Shown: positions 3,391-45,165 of the stretch, one piece after another
How the letters are laid out: each line of letters starts with the position of its first letter
Position numbering within the stretch: the stretch's first letter is position 1
Assembly (NCBI GenBank): GCA_039680605.1
Contig: JBDKTA010000022.1
Location: 62,001 to 126,000 of the forward strand
Origin: Planctomycetaceae bacterium
Lineage (GTDB): Bacteria > Planctomycetota > Phycisphaerae > SM23-33
DNA: 64,000 nucleotides
Direction of reading: 5' to 3'
Notes under the pieces: generated by a model
Told to the model about the DNA's origin: nothing
The model's input: the letters and a program-made list of their open reading frames with translations, nothing else
Database searches by the model: none
Position numbers and translations under genes: made by a program

Positions 3391-4848
3391 TCAGAAGTCG
3401 TGCTGCAGTATGTCCTGCGTGCGGCGGCAGAGTTCCTGGGCGTAGTCGGTCCATCGCCCCTGGCCCCAGTAGCGGTAGCAACTGATCTGCGTCATCAACA
3501 AGTGGTACAGGGCGTTGCGATATCGCGGATCGGTTGTCGGCACGCCTTTTTCCAGCACCTTCTGAGCGAATAGCGCGCTGGTTTTCTCGATGGGGCCGAT
3601 GACGCTGTCGTAGCCGCGCACCCACGAAATGTTGTTGGTCCAGCTTCCGCCTTCCATATGGAAATCGTGGCGCTGGTGGCGAAGTTTTTCGATGGTCTTT
3701 TCCATCTCTTCCGGGCCGGCGCCGTCCTTGAAGTTGTCCCAGATCATCTTCTGCTTGATGGGCTGGACGGGCGTGAAGTCCTCCGGGCGAATCCCGATGC
3801 TTTCGAGATACTCCAGATACTCGGTGACGTTCACCGGAGCTGTCGCGCTGCCTGAGGCCTGTGACATCACCTCCTGATACTTTGATGGAAACTCGTTCAT
3901 CATGACGCCGCCGTTTTCGCCGTCGGCGATCTGCGTCACCAGCGGCGGGATGGACTTGCCCGCCAGTTCAACGCGCGACAGGCCGCAGGCTTCGTAATAC
4001 GGCTGCATCTGGGCCACGAGCTTGGTGTCGCTGCCCTGGGTCTTGACGATGGCGGTGATGCTGAGCGTCTGTCCTTTGGAGTTTCGCGCGACGAGGCGAT
4101 GCGGCTGATGCGGGCGCTCGATGCCCCCGCCGTCGGCGGGGCGCTCGATGGTGTGCTCCTGCACGAGCAGCCACGTGAAGCCGCAGTCTTTGAGCGTGCG
4201 GACGAACTCATAGCACACGTCGGGATGATTGGGCAGGGCCATCTCCGACGGCGAAAACCCGCGGATGCGCGACAGGGCCTCGAGCCCAAAGATCGAGGCG
4301 AAGAAATGCTGCCATGCCCGCACGTGCAGGCGATAGTCCTGCACCGGCGTCGACGGCGCCACCGCGTGCCCCCACGGCGCGCCAAGCCATTCCACGCAGC
4401 GCCGGTAACCGCGGTCCGCCGTGATCACCCGCAAGGCGTCGATGACGTCCATCGCCCCCATCTGCAGCAGCCCCTGCAGCAGACAGCCGGAGTACTCCAG
4501 CATCACGCGCGGATTCTTGCCGTCCTCGACGAGCCTGGGAATGAACTCCCCCATCCGCTTGTAGCACCAGCGGAAGACCGGCGCGTTGTGCCCGTCGCCG
4601 ATGTCCGGGTGCTCCATCATGAACTGCAGGTGCCCGATGACCTCTGCCGTGCGTACGTCGTCGCCGCCGGCGGGCACCAGCGGCTGATGCATGTGCAGGG
4701 CGATGGCGAAGGCGCTGTTGAGTCTGGCGAAATCAATGCCGCTTTCGGGAAGGTAGACTACCCCCTGACCGCTGGTGGCCTGGGCGATACGCTCATCGTG
4801 GCCGCAGACTTGGGGCATCGAATCCAGTTGGGCCGACTCGTCAGTCAT
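3391..4848 (-). CDS. Glycoside hydrolase family 57 protein
   Basis: A 485-residue GH57-type protein that probably acts on alpha-glucans in the cytoplasm. The family's opening motif, a strand ending in HMHQPL, is seen at about residues 52-57 (FAIALHMHQPLVP). The middle repeats the GH57 pattern of a barrel with long loops: GFSPSEMALPNHPDVCYEF, then FTWLLVQEHTIERP. It is shorter than many amylopullulanases and longer than the branching enzyme core; the exact specificity cannot be read. An upstream frame extension is only translated repeat DNA, and AGGAG eight bases before the ATG at 4848 fixes the start. It is the last gene of the glycogen cluster, after glgP. Confidence 0.8.
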   Translation of the reverse strand: MTDESAQLDSMPQVCGHDERIAQATSGQGVVYLPESGIDFARLNSAFAIALHMHQPLVPAGGDDVRTAEVIGHLQFMMEHPDIGDGHNAPVFRWCYKRMGEFIPRLVEDGKNPRVMLEYSGCLLQGLLQMGAMDVIDALRVITADRGYRRCVEWLGAPWGHAVAPSTPVQDYRLHVRAWQHFFASIFGLEALSRIRGFSPSEMALPNHPDVCYEFVRTLKDCGFTWLLVQEHTIERPADGGGIERPHQPHRLVARNSKGQTLSITAIVKTQGSDTKLVAQMQPYYEACGLSRVELAGKSIPPLVTQIADGENGGVMMNEFPSKYQEVMSQASGSATAPVNVTEYLEYLESIGIRPEDFTPVQPIKQKMIWDNFKDGAGPEEMEKTIEKLRHQRHDFHMEGGSWTNNISWVRGYDSVIGPIEKTSALFAQKVLEKGVPTTDPRYRNALYHLLMTQISCYRYWGQGRWTDYAQELCRRTQDILQHDF

Positions 4849-4872
4849 GGCGATTCTCCTGTTCTTGTAGGG

Positions 4873-4915
4873 CACGGGCGAGACGCCCGTGCGACTCATG
4901 GGCAAGATGCCCATG
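4873..4915. repeat. GGGCGAGACGCCC / GGGCAAGATGCCC double palindrome
   Basis: Two 19-bp perfect-arm palindromes lie in tandem: CACGGGCGAGACGCCCGTG at 4873-4891 and CATGGGCAAGATGCCCATG at 4897-4915. The inner cores GGGC-GAGAC-GCCC and GGGC-AAGAT-GCCC recur at 45182-45287 and 56644-56695 with different but matched outer bases. Confidence 0.9.
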
Positions 4916-4923
4916 CTACGTCA

Positions 4924-7065
4924 TCATCGTGCCTGCACGACGGCGGGGCACGAGCACGGCAACCCGCCGGCGGCGGGAAGGTAGCAGTGGACGGTGTAGT
5001 CGCGGATCATTCGCGCGGCGCTGAACCGCCAGGCCAGCGTGCGGATGGCGTTCTTCTGCCGAGCGACCCACTGGCGAGGAATCCCGCTCTCGTCCAAATT
5101 ATAGAACAGCGGCACCACCTCGCGTTCGAGCACCTCGTACAGCGAACCCACGTCGGCGCGATCCTGCTGCTGCCAGTCGCTGTGCTCGTCGCCGCGACCG
5201 ATCGCGAAGCCGTTGCTGCCGTCATACGCCTCCGCCCACCAGCCGTCCAGCACCGAAAGGTTCAGCCCGCCATTGAGCACGGTCTTCATGCCGCTGGTGC
5301 CGCAGGCCTCGAACGGGCGGTATGGGTTGTTGAGCCACAGGTCCACGCCCTGCACGAGATGGCGGGCCACGTTGATGTCGTGATCTTCAAGAAACACCAC
5401 CCGCCCCGTCAGCCTCGGGTCGCGCGCGGCATTGAAGACCGATTGGATCAGCCGCTTGCCTCCGTCGTCGGCAGGATGCGCCTTGCCGGCATAGATGATC
5501 TGCACCGGCCGCGCTGGATCGTTCACCAGCCGCGCCAGGCGGTCCATGTCGCGCAGGAGCAGGTCGCCCCGCTTGTACGCGGCGAAGCGCCGGGCGAAAC
5601 CGATCGTCAGCACCGACGGTTCCAGGCACGCTCGCGGGCCGGCGACAGGGTCCGCCTCGCCGCGCGCCTCGGCGGCCTTGCGCAGGCAGCGGCGCACGTA
5701 CTCGACCAGGTGGGCCTTGAGCAACTGGTGCTGCTCCCAGAACTCCATGTCGTCGATGCGGTCGACCGCCGACCACATCCCATGGTCGTCCATGCGCTGC
5801 TGCCAGTCGTCGCCCAGGACGCGGCGATACATCTGACTGACGGTCACCGCCAGCCACGTCGCCGAATGCACGCCGTTGGTGATGTGGCCGATGGGCACTT
5901 CGCTCTCGGGGCGCTGCGGCCAGAGGCACCGCCACATGCGCCGGCTGACGCGCCCGTGCAGGGCTGAGACGCCATTGCGATGGTTGGACATTCGCAGCCC
6001 CAGCACGGTCATGCAGAACTCTTCGTTGCGGCTATCGGCGTCGACGCGCCCCAGCGCCATCAGGTCGCGATGCGAGACGCCCAGTTGCCGCCGCAGGGGC
6101 CCCAGCGTCTCCTCGATCAGCGAATTGTCGAACCGATCATGGGCGGCGTCGACGGGAGTGTGCGTGGTAAAGACCGTCAGCGCCGAGACGCGGTCTTTGA
6201 CATCTGCAAACGTGCGGCCCTCGCGCTGCATGAGCATGCGGCACATGTCCAGCGCGGCGAAGGCGCTGTGGCCTTCATTGAGATGGATCACGCCCGGCGA
6301 AAGGTTCAGCGCCTCCAGCGCCCTCAGGCCTCCGACGCCCAGGATGAGCTCCTGCCGCGCCCGCACGCGCACGTTGCCGCCGTAGAGCTGGCTCGTCAGG
6401 GCGCGGTCGTCGGGATTGTTGCCCTCGACATTGCTGTCAAGCAGGACCAGGCGGCAGCGCCCCACGCGGGCCGTCCAGACCGCCACGCGGATCTCCGACG
6501 AGCCCGTCGCCAGCGGAATGATCAGCCGCTCGCCGCGCTGGTCGCTCGCCTGCTCCAGCGGCAGCATCGTCACGTCGGACGCGAAGTAGTGCTCCCTCTG
6601 CCAGCCGCCGGCGTCGATGGTCTGGTTGAAATAGCCCTTGGCATAGAAGAGCCCCACCGCCACCAGCGGCAGTCCCAGGTCGCTGGCGGCCTTGAGGTGG
6701 TCGCCGGCCAGCACGCCCAGCCCGCCGGCATAGGTCGGCAGCGACTCGTGCAGACCGAACTCGGCGGAGAAATAGGCCACCGGTCGCGCTCGCAGCACGC
6801 CGGCGTGACGGGCGGCCCAGGTGTGGGAATCGTTCATGTACGCCTGCAGGGCGTGGAAGGCATAGGCGGTGCGGGCCTCGAGGGCCAGGTCGGCCGCTCG
6901 AACCCGCATGAGGTTCTGGGGCAGCATCGACAGAAACAGAGCGGGGTTGTGGTTGGACTCGCGCCAGATCGGGGGGTCCAGGTCGCGGAAGATCTCGACG
7001 ATCTCCGGATGCCACGTCCAGTAGAGATTACGCCCCAGCTCTCGCAAACGGTCGATCAGGTCCAT
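4924..7065 (-). CDS. glgP: Alpha-glucan (glycogen) phosphorylase
   Basis: A 713-residue GT35 phosphorylase of the short bacterial/archaeal type. It releases glucose-1-phosphate from alpha-1,4-glucan ends. The pyridoxal-phosphate lysine lies in EACGTSGMKTVLNGGLN near residue 600. The N-terminal pattern AYFSAEFGLHESLPTYAGGLG is diagnostic for the subfamily, as is FTTHTPVDAAHDRF. AGGAG precedes the ATG. The next gene of the cluster, the GH57 hydrolase, lies downstream across a 75-bp repeat-bearing gap. Together with the branching enzyme and GT4 genes upstream it forms a glycogen synthesis and breakdown set. The call is firm. Confidence 0.95.
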   Translation of the reverse strand: MDLIDRLRELGRNLYWTWHPEIVEIFRDLDPPIWRESNHNPALFLSMLPQNLMRVRAADLALEARTAYAFHALQAYMNDSHTWAARHAGVLRARPVAYFSAEFGLHESLPTYAGGLGVLAGDHLKAASDLGLPLVAVGLFYAKGYFNQTIDAGGWQREHYFASDVTMLPLEQASDQRGERLIIPLATGSSEIRVAVWTARVGRCRLVLLDSNVEGNNPDDRALTSQLYGGNVRVRARQELILGVGGLRALEALNLSPGVIHLNEGHSAFAALDMCRMLMQREGRTFADVKDRVSALTVFTTHTPVDAAHDRFDNSLIEETLGPLRRQLGVSHRDLMALGRVDADSRNEEFCMTVLGLRMSNHRNGVSALHGRVSRRMWRCLWPQRPESEVPIGHITNGVHSATWLAVTVSQMYRRVLGDDWQQRMDDHGMWSAVDRIDDMEFWEQHQLLKAHLVEYVRRCLRKAAEARGEADPVAGPRACLEPSVLTIGFARRFAAYKRGDLLLRDMDRLARLVNDPARPVQIIYAGKAHPADDGGKRLIQSVFNAARDPRLTGRVVFLEDHDINVARHLVQGVDLWLNNPYRPFEACGTSGMKTVLNGGLNLSVLDGWWAEAYDGSNGFAIGRGDEHSDWQQQDRADVGSLYEVLEREVVPLFYNLDESGIPRQWVARQKNAIRTLAWRFSAARMIRDYTVHCYLPAAGGLPCSCPAVVQAR

Positions 7066-7075
7066 GGCGGACTCC

Positions 7076-7184
7076 TATGGAGTGCGGCAGCCTTAGCTGC
7101 CGCTTTGGCTGTTGTTGGGATGCATAACGACCTTCGCCTGCCGAAAAACATCCAAAGCGGCAGCTGCTGCTGCCGCACTCCATA
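7076..7184. repeat. Inverted-repeat element, family A, copy 1
   Basis: Two 33-bp arms (7076-7108 and 7152-7184) pair with four mismatches, each built around TATGGAGTGCGGCAG and GCTGCCGCTTTGG. The 43-bp spacer ends in GAAAAACAT. A second copy lies in opposite orientation at 43385-43477. The size, terminal inverted repeats and lack of coding resemble a MITE or a mobile palindromic element. Confidence 0.85.
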
Positions 7185-39309: not shown

Positions 39310-40824
39310 TCAAAGCCCCACGATCGCCGACAGGCGGTCCATGTCCAGGTGCTTGCGGAAATGCTCGGCCAGCAGATCGTACTGGCTTTCGCGGAACGCG
39401 GCGATCGACTGCGACGACTCCGCTGCGAACTGATCGCCCAGGTGCGGGCACAGTTCCCTCAGAAACGCGCGGCGGAACTCGACCACGTCGAACAGCCCGT
39501 GCAGATAGGTGCCCCAGATCTTCCCATCGGCGCTGATGCAGCCGTCGAGGCCGGGCGAGGCCTTGCCATTGCGGGTGTCGATCTCCACAGCCCCCTCCAT
39601 CGCGGCGGGAGGCTGCGTGACGCCCATGTGGATCTCGTACCCGTCCACGCGCTGGCCCAGGCGTCGCCACACCCCCGCCGTGCGCGTGAGCGTCTTGTCG
39701 GCGGCCAAAGTTGTCTGAAGGTCCAGCACGCCCAGGCCCGCGGTCTGTCCGGGCGGGCCTTCCACGCCGCCGGGGTCAGCGATGGTCGCCCCGAGCATCT
39801 GGTAGCCGCCGCACACGCCGCCGAGGCGCCCGCCCGCTTGCAAATAGCTTTTGATCGCCGCGTCCCAACCGACCTGGCGCATCCATTCCAGATCGCTGCG
39901 CACATTCTTGGCCCCGGGCAGAATCACCAAGTCGTACCCGATCAGCCGCCGCGGCCGGGCCAGGTAGTGCAGGTTCACCACGCCCTCGCGCTGTAGCGGG
40001 CCAAAGTCGGTAAAGTTCGAGATGTGCGGCAGGCGGATCACGGCGATATTGATCCGCCCGCTGACCGGTCCTGCCGGCGGGTCGATCAGCGTGTCCAGCG
40101 GCATGCCGTCTTCGGAATCGATCTGCACGTGGTAGAAGAACGGCACCAGGCCCAGCATCGGCACGCCCGTGCGCTCGCTCAGCCAGGCCATGCCGTCGTC
40201 GAACAGCCGCGCGTCGCCGCGGAAGCGGTTGATGATCACGCCCGCCACGGCAGAGCGGTCCTGCGGCGGGATCACGTCCAGCGTTCCGACGATCTGCGCG
40301 AAGACGCCGCCGCGGTCGATGTCGGCCACCAGCAGCACCGGCGCCTCGCCCGCCGCGGCCATCCGGAAGTTTACGAAGTCGCGCGGGCGCAGGTTCACTT
40401 CGGCACACGAGCCGGCGCCTTCCATCACCACCAGGTCGTACCGGTCGCGCAGGCGGTCGAGGCTTTGCCGCGAGGCCGCAAAGAGCGCATCGGTGTCGGC
40501 GAAGTAGTCTGCCGCGCTGCTGACGCCGACGGCTTTGCCATGCACGATGACCTGGGCGTGGATGTCAGCCGAGGGCTTGAGCAGCACCGGGTTCATGTCG
40601 ACGGTGGGCTCGAGCCCGGCGGCCTGGGCCTGGACGACCTGGGCGCGGCCCATTTCGCCGCCGTCGAGGGTGACGTAAGAATTGTTCGACATGTTCTGGG
40701 CCTTGAACGGCGCCACGCGCAGCCCCATGTTTCGGAAGATCCGGCACAGGGCCGTCACGACGATGCTCTTGCCGACATCCGACCCGGTCCCCAGAACCGC
40801 CAGGCATTTTCCGCGCGGGGGCAT
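39310..40824 (-). CDS. cobQ: Adenosylcobyric acid synthase (glutamine-hydrolysing)
   Basis: A 504-residue CobQ/CbiP. It adds four amides to adenosylcobyrinic acid a,c-diamide on the way to cobalamin. The N-terminal dethiobiotin-synthetase-like P-loop domain reads AVLGTGSDVGKSIVVTALCR and AQNMSNNSYVT, both typical of CobQ. The GATase domain has the nucleophile in GVCGGYQMLG and the histidine motif in GYEIHMGVT. The ATG at 40824 (MPPRGK) is chosen; the upstream frame lies in the ABC ATPase gene, five bases away. It follows a corrinoid-type importer, so uptake and salvage are linked. Confidence 0.95.
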   Translation of the reverse strand: MPPRGKCLAVLGTGSDVGKSIVVTALCRIFRNMGLRVAPFKAQNMSNNSYVTLDGGEMGRAQVVQAQAAGLEPTVDMNPVLLKPSADIHAQVIVHGKAVGVSSAADYFADTDALFAASRQSLDRLRDRYDLVVMEGAGSCAEVNLRPRDFVNFRMAAAGEAPVLLVADIDRGGVFAQIVGTLDVIPPQDRSAVAGVIINRFRGDARLFDDGMAWLSERTGVPMLGLVPFFYHVQIDSEDGMPLDTLIDPPAGPVSGRINIAVIRLPHISNFTDFGPLQREGVVNLHYLARPRRLIGYDLVILPGAKNVRSDLEWMRQVGWDAAIKSYLQAGGRLGGVCGGYQMLGATIADPGGVEGPPGQTAGLGVLDLQTTLAADKTLTRTAGVWRRLGQRVDGYEIHMGVTQPPAAMEGAVEIDTRNGKASPGLDGCISADGKIWGTYLHGLFDVVEFRRAFLRELCPHLGDQFAAESSQSIAAFRESQYDLLAEHFRKHLDMDRLSAIVGL

Positions 40825-40829
40825 GGTGT

Positions 40830-41621
40830 TCACTCCGCCGTCACGATGGGCACGGCCCGGCCGGGAACGTCGATCAGGCGGATATCCACGCCGTAGGTCT
40901 GGGCGAGCACGTCGCTGCGGACGACGTCGCCGGCCTTGCCGTCGGCGACGACGCGCCCGCCGCGCATGAGGACCAGTTCGTCGGCGAACTGAGCGGCGAG
41001 GTTCACGTCGTGGCTGACGCAGACGACGGCCATCTCCCAGTCGTGGGCGAGGCGCTGCATCATCTGGTGGATTTTTAGCTGGTGCTTGATGTCGAGGTTG
41101 CTGGTGGGCTCGTCGAGCAGCAGGACCTGGGGCTGCTGGGCCAGCGCCCGGGCGATCATGACGCGCTGCGCCTCGCCGCCGGACAGCTCGCCCAGCGTGC
41201 GATCGGCGAAGGCCAGCGTGTCGGTCATCTCCATGGCCGCGCGGGCGACGTTGCGGTCCTGTTTGGCAGCCAGGCCCAGCACGCCGACGTGGGCGAAGCG
41301 CCCCATGAGCACCAGTTCGCTGACGGTGAAGGCGAACGCCGAGGTCGGGAACTGCGGCACGTACGCCATGACGCGGGCCAGGGCCTTGCGCGAATACTTC
41401 GTGAGCTCCTTGCCGTCCAGGCGGATCGACCCGCCCTGGGGGCGCAGCCACCCCAGCAGGCACCGCAGCAGCGTGGTCTTGCCCGAGCCGTTAGGCCCCA
41501 GCAGCGCCAGCAGCCGCCCGGCGGCGGCGTTGATGCTGATGTCCTCCAGCACCGGCGGCTGGTCCGGGCGGTACTGAAAGCTCAGCCCGCGCGCCTCGAG
41601 CACGTGCGATTGGCCGCTCAT
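40830..41621 (-). CDS. ABC transporter ATPase (BtuD/FecE type)
   Basis: A 263-residue ATPase with Walker A LLGPNGSGKTTLL, signature LSGGEAQRVMIARAL and Walker B VLLLDEPTSNLD, followed by the switch histidine in CVSHDVN. The sequence is of the iron-siderophore/cobalamin importer group. It overlaps the fused binding-protein/permease gene by four bases and ends five bases before cobQ. The gene context points to corrinoid uptake, although siderophore uptake remains possible. The permease lies upstream. Confidence 0.9.
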   Translation of the reverse strand: MSGQSHVLEARGLSFQYRPDQPPVLEDISINAAAGRLLALLGPNGSGKTTLLRCLLGWLRPQGGSIRLDGKELTKYSRKALARVMAYVPQFPTSAFAFTVSELVLMGRFAHVGVLGLAAKQDRNVARAAMEMTDTLAFADRTLGELSGGEAQRVMIARALAQQPQVLLLDEPTSNLDIKHQLKIHQMMQRLAHDWEMAVVCVSHDVNLAAQFADELVLMRGGRVVADGKAGDVVRSDVLAQTYGVDIRLIDVPGRAVPIVTAE

Positions 41622-43378
41622 GGCTCACCTCGGCGATTGCCGCGCCGCAGCAGGAAGATGAAGAACGGCCCGCCGGCCATCGCCGTAACCACCCCCACCG
41701 GCAGTTCGCCGTGGCGCGACACGGTGTCGGCCCAGCGGCACAGCGTGTCGGCGCCGACGAGAAACGCCGCACCCGCCACGGCCGTCACGATCATCAGCTT
41801 GCGATGGTCGGGACCCAGCACCATGCGGCACAGGTGCGGCACGATGAGTCCGACGAATCCGATCGGTCCGGCCAGGGCGACGGCGGCGGCGGTCATCAGC
41901 GCGACGATCGTGAATATCTCGATCCGCAGGCGATGCACGTTGACGCCGCTGGAGGCGGCGACCTCGTCGCCCAGGCCCAGGGCGTTCAGGGCGGCGCTGC
42001 GGAGCATCAGGCAGACCCAGCCGCCCAGCACCATCGCCCAGCACACCGCCAGCAGCCCCGGTCGGAACCAGAGATACTCGGGAATCTTGCCCATGCCCCA
42101 GCCGATGAACGCGATCATCTCCTCCTGCTTGACGAACTGCAGGATCACCAGGATCAGCGCCCCGTTAAAGACGTTGACGATCACGCCCGACAGCAGCAGC
42201 ACGTACGGGTCCAGCCGCCCGCGACGCTGGGCGATCCCGTACACCACCGCCGCCGTCACCAGCGCCGCGGCCATCGCCAGCACCGGCGTGGTCAGCCACG
42301 TCGGAAGCACCGTCGCCACCGCCAGCGATCCGCCCAGCAGCACGCCGACGCCGGCGCCGCTGGAGATGCCCAGCAGGTACGGTTCGGCCAGCGGGTTTCG
42401 CATCAGACCCTGCAGCGCCAGACCGGCGCTGGCCAAAGCCATGCCCACAGCCGCCGCGGCCAGGATGCGATACAGGATGACGCGGTCCATGACGTCCAAC
42501 CACGACGCATCGGCCGCGGCGGTGGTTGCGGACATCGCCTCGCCGTGAAACACCTTGGCCAGGCGCTCGGTGTATTGGGCCAAGTGTCCTGCCGGCATGG
42601 ACCAGTCGGCGTCTTCAACCACCTCGACGCGACGCGGCCAACCCTGCCCGCGCCCCAGGTTCGTCCAGTAGCGGCGGGCGTCGTCGCTGCGGCCGGGCAT
42701 GCACTGGCAAAAGACGATCTCCGGGCGCGCGCCGATGATCGATTTCGACGTCGGCTGAACCCATCCGACGTGGCTGTCGTGGAGGATGTTCGTGCCCCCG
42801 GCGGCGGTGACCATGTCGTCGATAAACGTGCCGCGCCCCGCGCTGGAGAGGTCCTCAAAGCCCAGCGCGAAGAGCACGGTCGGCTTTGGCAGATTCGCGG
42901 TCTGGCGCGTCACGTCGGACAGCTTGCTGCGGAACTCAGCGGCCGCCCGTACGCCGACAGCCGGTTTGCCCGCCAGGGCGCCCAGGCGTTCCATCGCGGC
43001 AGCGATGTCGTCGAGCCGCTCGATGCTGAACCTTTCGATCCGCAGGTCGGGGCGGATCTGCTTGATTGGCTCGAAATGTTTGAGCTCCAACTGCGCGATG
43101 ACGATGTCGGGCTCGGTCTGGAGTATCGGTTGGGCCCGAATGTTGAGCGCGTCGCCGACGACGGGACGGGTCTGCCCGGCCGGCAGGCGGCAGTAGCTCG
43201 AAACGCCGACGATATGATCGCCCAGCCCCATCTGGAACAGCAGGGCGGTCACGGCCGGGGCGATCGAGACAATGCGAGGGCGAGGCGCCTCGGGGCTGGT
43301 GGCCGCGCGGCGGCAACCGGGAACGAACACGAGGCTCGCCGCCAGCAGGAGCGCCGGGATTTTGATAGCCTTGGTCAT
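41618..43378 (-). CDS. Fused periplasmic-binding protein and permease of a corrinoid-type ABC importer
   Basis: A 586-residue fusion. It starts with a lipoprotein-like signal (ALLLAASLVFVPGC) and a BtuF-like binding domain, residues about 35-285 (RIVSIAPAVTALLFQMGLGD, EPDIVIAQL). A BtuC/FecCD permease follows, with GMALASAGLALQGLMRNPLAEPYLLGISSGAGVG and GPIGFVGLIVPHLCRM. The usual first helix of FecCD is missing, leaving about nine. That puts the N-terminus of the permease part in the periplasm, where the binding domain belongs. It is coupled to the ATPase gene by a four-base overlap. The longer frame upstream reads through the family A repeat and is rejected. Confidence 0.88.
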   Translation of the reverse strand: MTKAIKIPALLLAASLVFVPGCRRAATSPEAPRPRIVSIAPAVTALLFQMGLGDHIVGVSSYCRLPAGQTRPVVGDALNIRAQPILQTEPDIVIAQLELKHFEPIKQIRPDLRIERFSIERLDDIAAAMERLGALAGKPAVGVRAAAEFRSKLSDVTRQTANLPKPTVLFALGFEDLSSAGRGTFIDDMVTAAGGTNILHDSHVGWVQPTSKSIIGARPEIVFCQCMPGRSDDARRYWTNLGRGQGWPRRVEVVEDADWSMPAGHLAQYTERLAKVFHGEAMSATTAAADASWLDVMDRVILYRILAAAAVGMALASAGLALQGLMRNPLAEPYLLGISSGAGVGVLLGGSLAVATVLPTWLTTPVLAMAAALVTAAVVYGIAQRRGRLDPYVLLLSGVIVNVFNGALILVILQFVKQEEMIAFIGWGMGKIPEYLWFRPGLLAVCWAMVLGGWVCLMLRSAALNALGLGDEVAASSGVNVHRLRIEIFTIVALMTAAAVALAGPIGFVGLIVPHLCRMVLGPDHRKLMIVTAVAGAAFLVGADTLCRWADTVSRHGELPVGVVTAMAGGPFFIFLLRRGNRRGEP

Positions 43379-43384
43379 GCGAAC

Positions 43385-43477
43385 TATGGAGTGCGGCAGC
43401 AGCAGCTGCCGCTTTTCCCTGGCGCTGTGGCGATTGAAAAACATCCAAAGCGGCAGCTAAGGCTGCCGCACTCCATA
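43385..43477. repeat. Inverted-repeat element, family A, copy 2
   Basis: Arms at 43385-43416 and 43445-43477 match the copy at 7076-7184, in the opposite orientation. Both copies share GAAAAACATCCAAAGCGGCA next to one arm. It lies between nnrD and the BtuFC-like gene. Confidence 0.85.
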
Positions 43478-43505: not shown

Positions 43506-44396
43506 CTACGACACCTGCTTCAGGGCGTTGGGCAGGTAGTCCAGCAGGTCGCTGGCGATCAGCGAGACCTGTCCGAGCTGGTTGGCCGCTAGGTCGCCGG
43601 CGACGCCGTGGACGTTGGCGCCCAGGCAGGCGGCGTCAAAGAGCGGCACGCCCTGGCCGATCAGCGCCGCGATCAGTCCGGTCAGCACGTCGCCGGTGCC
43701 TCCGGTGGCCATGCCCGGATTGCCGCTGGGGTTGACGTACACCCGTCGCCCATCGGTGACGACCGTGCCGGCGCCCTTGAGCACCAGCGCCAGCGGCGGG
43801 GCCTGCAGGGCTCGCACGTCCATCCAGAACCGCGCCGCGTCGATGGCGCTGGCCATGCGGTCGGCCTGCACTTTGGCCACGCTCTTGTCGGTCAGGCGGG
43901 CGAACTCGCCGGGGTGGGGCGTCAGGACGAGCGGGCAGCGGCGGGCAGCGGCCCAGTCGTCGATCTTGTCGAGGTTGTTGAGTCCGTCGGCGTCGAGGAC
44001 GACGGGCTTGTCCTGCTCGAGGATCGCCCGCACGAGGTTCTGCTGGTGGAGGCCCTGCCCCATTCCGGGCCCGACGGCCAGCACGTCGCAGACCGCGGCG
44101 GCGTTGAGGGCCTCGCGAACGGCCCGGGCGTCAATTCGCCCGCTCTCGTCGCAGCTCAGCGGCACGGAGGTGGCGCAGGGCACCAGCGCGGCGACGGTCT
44201 GCTGGATGGTGCGCGGGGCGGCAAAGGTCACCAGCCCCGCCCCGCCGCGCAGGGCCGCCCGCGTCGCCAGGGCTACCGCCCCGATCATGCCCTGGCTTCC
44301 GCCGACGATCAGCACGTGCCCGAACGTGCCCTTGTGCCCGTCGGGGCGCCGCGCCGGAATCATCGGCACGTCATTGATCCGCTCGATTTCGCTCAT
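43506..44396 (-). CDS. nnrD: ADP-dependent NAD(P)H-hydrate dehydratase
   Basis: A 296-residue ribokinase-like repair enzyme, which dehydrates the damaged S-forms of NADHX and NADPHX. The glycine-rich motifs KGTFGHVLIVGGSQGM and GNPGMATGGTGDVLTG are diagnostic, with the catalytic aspartate in the second. It lacks the N-terminal epimerase domain (NnrE) found in fused forms. The ATG at 44396 was chosen because an upstream frame lies in larB. It overlaps larB by 26 bases, so these genes are in one operon. Confidence 0.92.
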   Translation of the reverse strand: MSEIERINDVPMIPARRPDGHKGTFGHVLIVGGSQGMIGAVALATRAALRGGAGLVTFAAPRTIQQTVAALVPCATSVPLSCDESGRIDARAVREALNAAAVCDVLAVGPGMGQGLHQQNLVRAILEQDKPVVLDADGLNNLDKIDDWAAARRCPLVLTPHPGEFARLTDKSVAKVQADRMASAIDAARFWMDVRALQAPPLALVLKGAGTVVTDGRRVYVNPSGNPGMATGGTGDVLTGLIAALIGQGVPLFDAACLGANVHGVAGDLAANQLGQVSLIASDLLDYLPNALKQVS

Positions 44397-45165
44397 GGTT
44401 GTGCCCCCGCGCCGCGGCCACGTTGCGGGCGATGGTGGCGGCAATGTACCCGCCGCCGAAGCCGTTGTCGATGTTCACCGTGCTGACGCCCGAGGCGCAG
44501 CTCGTCAGCATGCTCAGCAACGCCGTCAGTCCGCCAAAGCTCGCCCCGTAGCCGATCGACGTCGGAACGCCGATCACCGGCGCCGACACCAGCCCCCCCA
44601 CCACACTGGGCAAAGCGCCTTCCATGCCTGCCACCACCACGATGGCGTCGGCCTCGGCCAGGCTCCGCCGATGCGCCAGCAGGCGGTGCAGCCCCGCCAC
44701 GCCGACATCATAGTGCGTGCTGACGGACTGGTTCATGATCTCTGCCGTCACGCGCGCTTCCTCGGCCACCGGGATATCGCCCGTGCCCGCCGACACGACC
44801 GCCACGCGACCGCCGGCTGGAGGCGTTTCTTCCTGGCGCAGCGTGATCGCCCGCGCCGCCTGGTGGAACTGAGCGGCGGGGTGATTGGCCGCCACGGCGG
44901 CGTACTGCTCCGGCGTGGCGCGCGTGGCCAGCACGTTGGTGCCCATGGCCGCAAGCCTGGCAAAAATCGTCTGCACGTGATCGACGGTCTTGCCCGGGCA
45001 GAAGATCACCTCGGGAAATCCGCAGCGGATCGCGCGGTGGTGGTCGATGGTGTGCTCGCCGCCGGCCTCGAAGGGCAGGTGGCGCAGCGCCTCGATGGCC
45101 TGCTCGATATTCGTCTGGCCGGACTGGACAGCCTGGAGCAGTTCTTTGAGTGCGTTCTCGTTCAT
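44371..45165 (-). CDS. larB: LarB-type pyridinium-carboxylase (nickel pincer cofactor) or AIR-carboxylase-like protein
   Basis: A 264-residue PurE-related protein. It carries VSAGTGDIPVAEEA, GVAGLHRLLAH, VVAGMEGALPSVVGGLV and GVPTSIGYGASFGGLTALL. LarB converts nicotinic acid adenine dinucleotide for the nickel-pincer cofactor of lactate racemase and other enzymes. The partners larC and larE are not in the window, so they may lie elsewhere. An upstream frame extension is repeat translation (family B) and is rejected. The gene overlaps nnrD, another dinucleotide-handling gene. Confidence 0.87.
   Translation of the reverse strand: MNENALKELLQAVQSGQTNIEQAIEALRHLPFEAGGEHTIDHHRAIRCGFPEVIFCPGKTVDHVQTIFARLAAMGTNVLATRATPEQYAAVAANHPAAQFHQAARAITLRQEETPPAGGRVAVVSAGTGDIPVAEEARVTAEIMNQSVSTHYDVGVAGLHRLLAHRRSLAEADAIVVVAGMEGALPSVVGGLVSAPVIGVPTSIGYGASFGGLTALLSMLTSCASGVSTVNIDNGFGGGYIAATIARNVAAARGHNHERNRADQ

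Follow-up and report, generated by a model that had tools for sequence, protein, structure and literature searches.

The window analysed here is a stretch of 64,000 nt from a planctomycete, to whose positions all coordinates refer, and it carries on its reverse strand an open frame of 608 codons with zero internal stops (41618–43444). A fused BtuF-BtuC gene of 586 aa occupies this frame from a methionine at 43378 down to 41618; residue numbers below follow the 608-aa frame unless the 586-aa one is stated. The chain opens with a signal sequence (43313–43378) that, on direct reading, bears a lipobox (MTKAIKIPALLLAASLVFVPGC), the cysteine of which, residue 44, would be lipidated. There follow a BtuF-like substrate-binding domain (SBP; residues ~53–303, 42536–43288), a linker (residues ~304–319, 42488–42535) that sequence comparison places where the SBP stop, the permease start and the first transmembrane helix (TM1) would lie, and a BtuC/FecCD permease domain comprising TM2–TM10 (residues 320–608, 41618–42487; FecCD profile positions 23–311, BtuC 55–325). 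Pfam finds Peripla_BP_2 at residues 58–251 (E = 3.4e-18) and FecCD (PF01032) at residues 304–601 (E = 3.8e-75), with profile positions 1–22, those of TM1, unmatched; these are its only domains in the chain, and no type I (BPD_transp) permease domain is among them. With phmmer, E. coli BtuF aligns to residues 55–261 and BtuC 55–325 to residues 322–603, Foldseek likens the SBP part to BtuF and the permease part to BtuC and heme permeases, and the NCBIfam matches of the first half, a related SBP model and BtuF, both lie below their curated cut-offs. The first-pass annotation had described a BtuF domain running straight into a BtuC domain, and had suggested that this could fix one binding domain to each permease chain; the former is what both Pfam and phmmer find in one continuous frame, without a missed stop or frameshift between the domains, and the latter follows from the sequence.

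That annotation had also placed the start at 43378, which we consider likely because the 22 codons upstream sit inside a dispersed palindromic repeat. This REPIN/MITE-like element of 93 nt with 31-nt arms (43385–43477), directly upstream of the gene, recurs dozens of times across the genome (86 matches over both strands), and another pair of its 12-mers lies at 7079–7181. Downstream of the fused gene come BtuD and then cobQ. The BtuD-like ATPase gene (40830–41621, reverse strand) shares 4 nt with the end of the fused gene, overlapping its stop, and is found beside the permease in relatives too, as expected of a cognate ATPase; cobQ (39310–40830, reverse strand, start approximate) encodes cobyric acid synthase (E = 1e-186). 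Upstream, the gene for NAD(P)H-hydrate dehydratase (NnrD; 43506–44444, reverse strand) is the importer's neighbour in most of the family, where NnrD-SBP-permease-BtuD is the order in most split and fused loci alike.

The same fusion was sought in 120 related genomes, then across the order (38) and the class (397 sampled). Besides the window's, five genomes carry a full-length, single-frame, TM1-less fusion (G301, G302, G307, G313 and G325, the last ending at a contig end after 538 residues), and all belong to the same family; a seventh fusion, in G298, runs across a frameshift at a contig end. The intact single-frame fusions span five genera (G000, G301/G325, G302, G307 and G313) and share the same boundary. 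The other relatives that we read closely encode the SBP, which in most cases bears a lipobox, separately from a permease that retains TM1. In these split loci the SBP stop lies mostly ~145–215 nt before TM2, so that a small frame-joining deletion would suffice for fusion. G310 was considered as a further fusion and rejected, since both domains are matched there only through stop codons and the locus reads as a pair of genes, of which the permease one includes a TM1; matches across both domains in G430 and G542 likewise require stop codons to be read through. No full-length fusion was found among plasmid records (72,556; no match covered 80% of the query), nor among the matches listed for 294 genomes of the phylum, other phyla having been little sampled. 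In the sister genus of the window (G315, G323; L072–L075), and unlike elsewhere in the family, the SBP gene and the permease-BtuD pair are on separate contigs.

The permease half begins, as the first-pass annotation proposed, at the usual second helix. The last SBP helix ends at residue ~303 and TM2 starts at ~320, a distance of about 50 nt that leaves no room for a hidden TM1, and apart from the lipoprotein signal (VPGC lipobox) no helix precedes residue 290. Hydropathy gives eight permease peaks in the window's fusion, whereas BtuC and unfused relatives have nine, and the tenth helix is weak throughout; a strong extra N-terminal peak in the fusion is the signal sequence. The ten helices of a type II permease are thus not present. 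A predicted AlphaFold structure, computed from a shallow alignment, is of modest quality and has no bearing on docking (mean pLDDT 66.7, pTM 0.44), with the SBP N-lobe good and the permease moderate to poor. Only SBP N-lobe rows and permease rows from TM2 on were used for it, because in alignments of unfused rows for both proteins the SBP C-lobe was wrongly placed. In 586-aa numbering, the model has the last SBP helix at 263–281, a short linker, and a helix at 294–326 that covers TM2. The earlier suggestion that losing helix 1 makes topological sense holds up well: as the SBP is exported, the chain enters the membrane from the periplasm, where TM2 starts.

One might instead suppose that an uncleaved signal substitutes for TM1, giving a ten-segment permease with the SBP inserted in its first periplasmic loop. 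The N-terminal hydrophobic stretch is indeed oriented N-in/C-out, as TM1 is, and four fusions are without a lipobox, so that in such relatives the signal may stay uncleaved. Read by eye, however, the fusions of the window, G302 and G307 still have a lipobox, and that of G313 shows ARA-DD, a classical site for signal peptidase I, while gene order and sequence identify the segment as the SBP's own signal and not the permease's TM1; we therefore regard this arrangement as unlikely. Counted in the same manner, a lipobox is present in 3/7 fusions versus 20/23 split SBPs (p = 0.03); an automatic pattern search, in which the pattern miscounted, gave no separation of the fused and split groups.

As for cargo, the substrate is most likely a corrinoid, judging from sequence and gene context, an assignment supported by the cobalamin riboswitches near relatives' systems and by cobQ beside the window's. 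Among the fused systems, those of G298, G301 and G313 have such a riboswitch nearby, and that of G307 a weak match cut by a contig end; among the split ones, G303 and G304 have one near theirs. The window has none, and the single one in its genome is on a different contig. The alternative cargo would be heme or a ferric siderophore, a reading that draws some strength from the permease half, whose best solved matches are FhuB and hemin permeases ranking above BtuC, and from the adjacent ATPase, whose top-scoring model is heme-type, just below cut-off. Set against these are the best PDB sequence match of the SBP half, a vitamin B12-binding protein, and the best NCBIfam model of the permease half, which is BtuC, though below its curated cut-off; together with the riboswitches and the adjoining cobQ, they leave heme or a siderophore as cargo quite improbable. 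The genome's one other Peripla_BP_2 SBP sits ~0.9 kb upstream of its only other FecCD permease (contig C34), and so no spare SBP is seen for the fused system.

A separate observation concerns the riboswitches themselves. In several relatives a cobalamin riboswitch near the B12 importer precedes genes for secreted proteins of PEP-CTERM type (one or two) and for a prepilin-like protein, types assigned by eye (L066 1271–4512, L069 10690–13773, L070 10367–13962), and the window's own genome has such a cassette on contig C8 (L098 ~4225–6092). It is possible that these are riboswitch-controlled cell-surface corrinoid cassettes.

In BtuCD-F, each BtuC contributes its Arg56 as partner to a Glu, one on either lobe of the SBP (PMC3741162; PMC3097204), and the corresponding Glu-Arg contacts of FecB, FhuD2 and FeuA have been described as indispensable to docking (PMC3741162). 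The first of these Glu residues is numbered 74 in both papers and 72 by the chain count used here. By alignment, the window's fusion has replaced all three partners: Gln105 (43130–43132, reverse strand) stands in place of Glu72 of BtuF, Lys234 (42743–42745, reverse strand) in place of Glu202, and Ile323 (42476–42478, reverse strand) in place of Arg56 of BtuC, so that the docking bridge of type II systems is absent. In the family-level sample, Glu72 is present in 22/22 split versus 5/7 fused proteins, Glu202 in 21/22 versus 0/7 (the G298 position being read in its second frame), and Arg56 in 24/24 versus 2/7, G302 and G313 retaining it. With relatedness ignored, Fisher p values are 0.05, 5e-6 and 1.2e-4, respectively. 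A wider unfused sample has Arg56 in 32/32, Glu72 in 25/25 of those covering it and Glu202 in 22/28; across both samples Arg56 is invariant in 56/56 unfused permeases, as opposed to its loss in 5/7 fusions.

As a guard against picking of residues, all columns at least 90% conserved in split proteins were ranked by their retention in fusions. Of 19 SBP columns, Glu202 has the lowest retention and alone is absent from every fusion, with Glu72 tied for second; of 85 permease columns, Arg56 comes second in erosion. Both a Glu202 change and an Arg56 loss occur in each of the two fused lineages described below. Because Arg56 adjoins the junction, the breakpoint itself might account for its disappearance. 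Erosion is also incomplete in the second fused clade, where Glu202 (Lys in the window) has changed only to Asp, and Glu72 is kept in five fusions. The first-pass annotation had further proposed that fusion raises local affinity; this may be so, and it gains indirect support from the erosion, in the fusions, of docking residues and a lipid anchor that free SBPs use.

These losses bear as well on whether the chain, once made whole, might be cut after export to release a free SBP and a TM1-less permease. The linker region is fast-evolving, with a dN/dS of 0.48, as such a site of processing might be, but it contains no conserved cleavage motif, the docking residues that a freed SBP would need are lost, and the lipid anchor is missing from four fusions. 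Post-export cleavage accordingly strikes us as very unlikely.

How often the fusion arose was examined with trees for the permease (TM2 on), the SBP and their concatenation. In all three, the window's protein groups with the split proteins of G315 and G323, joined in the permease and concatenated trees by the genus of G303, G322 and G326; the other fusions form a separate cluster, which includes the split genes of G363. Forcing all fusions into a single clade fails the AU test (p = 2.5e-4 for the permease, 1.1e-7 for the SBP and 1e-5 for the concatenation), whereas holding the second fused cluster together without G363 does not. Since a single fused clade is rejected in the trees of both halves, and since all outgroups read are split, the simplest account of the sequences is that fusion arose at least twice in the family, each time with loss of TM1. 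G363 (L083) itself is assigned to another family, and its grouping with the second fused clade may reflect transfer, misbinning, or a split state just outside that clade.

Tree topology by itself cannot distinguish gain from loss, and the direction of change, from split to fused, is one that we infer. One ancient fusion followed by fissions in the split relatives would take advantage of this ambiguity, yet it would require TM1 to have been regained repeatedly, it sits poorly with the rejection of a single fused clade, and every relative read outside the family is split, with no full-length fusion among the matches listed for the class and phylum samples. We accordingly give it very little credence, marginally less than we give cleavage, and favor repeated fusion.

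The fused gene is under purifying selection in the one pair for which this was calculated, G301 versus G325, with dN/dS values of 0.17 for the SBP, 0.08 for the permease and 0.48 for the linker region; values of about 0.1–0.2 argue against decay in this pair. That the fusion is an assembly or sequencing artefact or a decaying gene is scarcely credible: the genomes are drafts of the metagenome-assembled type and the G298 copy is frameshifted, but intact single frames with the same boundary in five genera, dN/dS well below 1 in both halves and 96% retention of conserved permease columns speak against it, and the occurrence of the architecture in one frame in five other genomes rules out an assembly error or a missed stop.

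Taken together, we think it probable that the fused chain belongs to a corrinoid importer of the type II (BtuCD-F) class of ABC transporters, with a cis-tethered SBP that arose by repeated fusion. On this model, a small deletion, very roughly 100–150 nt, would, on at least two occasions in the family, have joined SBP and permease genes that were neighbours in the same operon. The lipoprotein-type N-terminal signal would export the BtuF domain, the last helix of which would lead through the short linker into TM2; TM1, which starts the free permease on the cytoplasmic side, would no longer be needed. The transporter would presumably consist of two fused chains and two BtuD chains, the two binding domains of the dimer taking turns on a single docking face in cis, as in OpuA and GlnPQ. 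Intramolecular docking may then have relaxed selection on the Glu-Arg salt bridges and on the lipid anchor.

With a free SBP it is hard to separate recruitment by the Glu-Arg contacts from a signal through them that opens the permease. The fusions, which have dropped these contacts with function apparently kept, and which have no TM1, offer natural constructs for both questions. It is tentatively suggested, and we lean slightly against rather than toward it, that tethering has, on two separate occasions, taken the place of the Glu-Arg docking bridges and in many cases of the lipid anchor, that the bridges serve mainly to recruit the SBP and not to signal, and that TM1 of this permease class is dispensable for transport. 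The fusions also suggest a one-chain design with which BtuCD-class transport could be studied at fixed stoichiometry.

Among known systems, OpuA, GlnPQ, OpuF and EgtU resemble the window's fusion in carrying the SBP in cis on the permease chain, with two or more binding domains per dimer; they have a type I-like permease fold and another binding-protein class. To our knowledge, none of them joins a BtuF-class SBP with a BtuC-class permease. SBP-permease fusions as such are established for these four and for ArtRQP (PMC9732360; PMC11466899), and EgtU is termed “type II” in PMC9732360. No report of a BtuF-BtuC fusion was found in the literature searched, coverage of which was partial and excluded subscription papers and architecture databases; a cis-tethered SBP in the BtuCD class is thus “not found” before, and we make no claim of a first. 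FhuB-type permeases also place a FecCD-family permease within a longer fused chain, but in FhuB the fused parts are two permease halves, and its SBP, FhuD, is free. Of the type II set, the window has the FecCD domain, the cognate ATPase and a fitting SBP class (Peripla_BP_2, BtuF), and departs from it in the ten helices, the separate SBP and the docking salt bridge. It is also close to E. coli BtuCD-F, with which it shares both domains, a BtuD-type ATPase and the permease from TM2 on; here, by contrast, SBP and permease form one chain, TM1 is absent, and Glu72, Glu202 and Arg56 are replaced.
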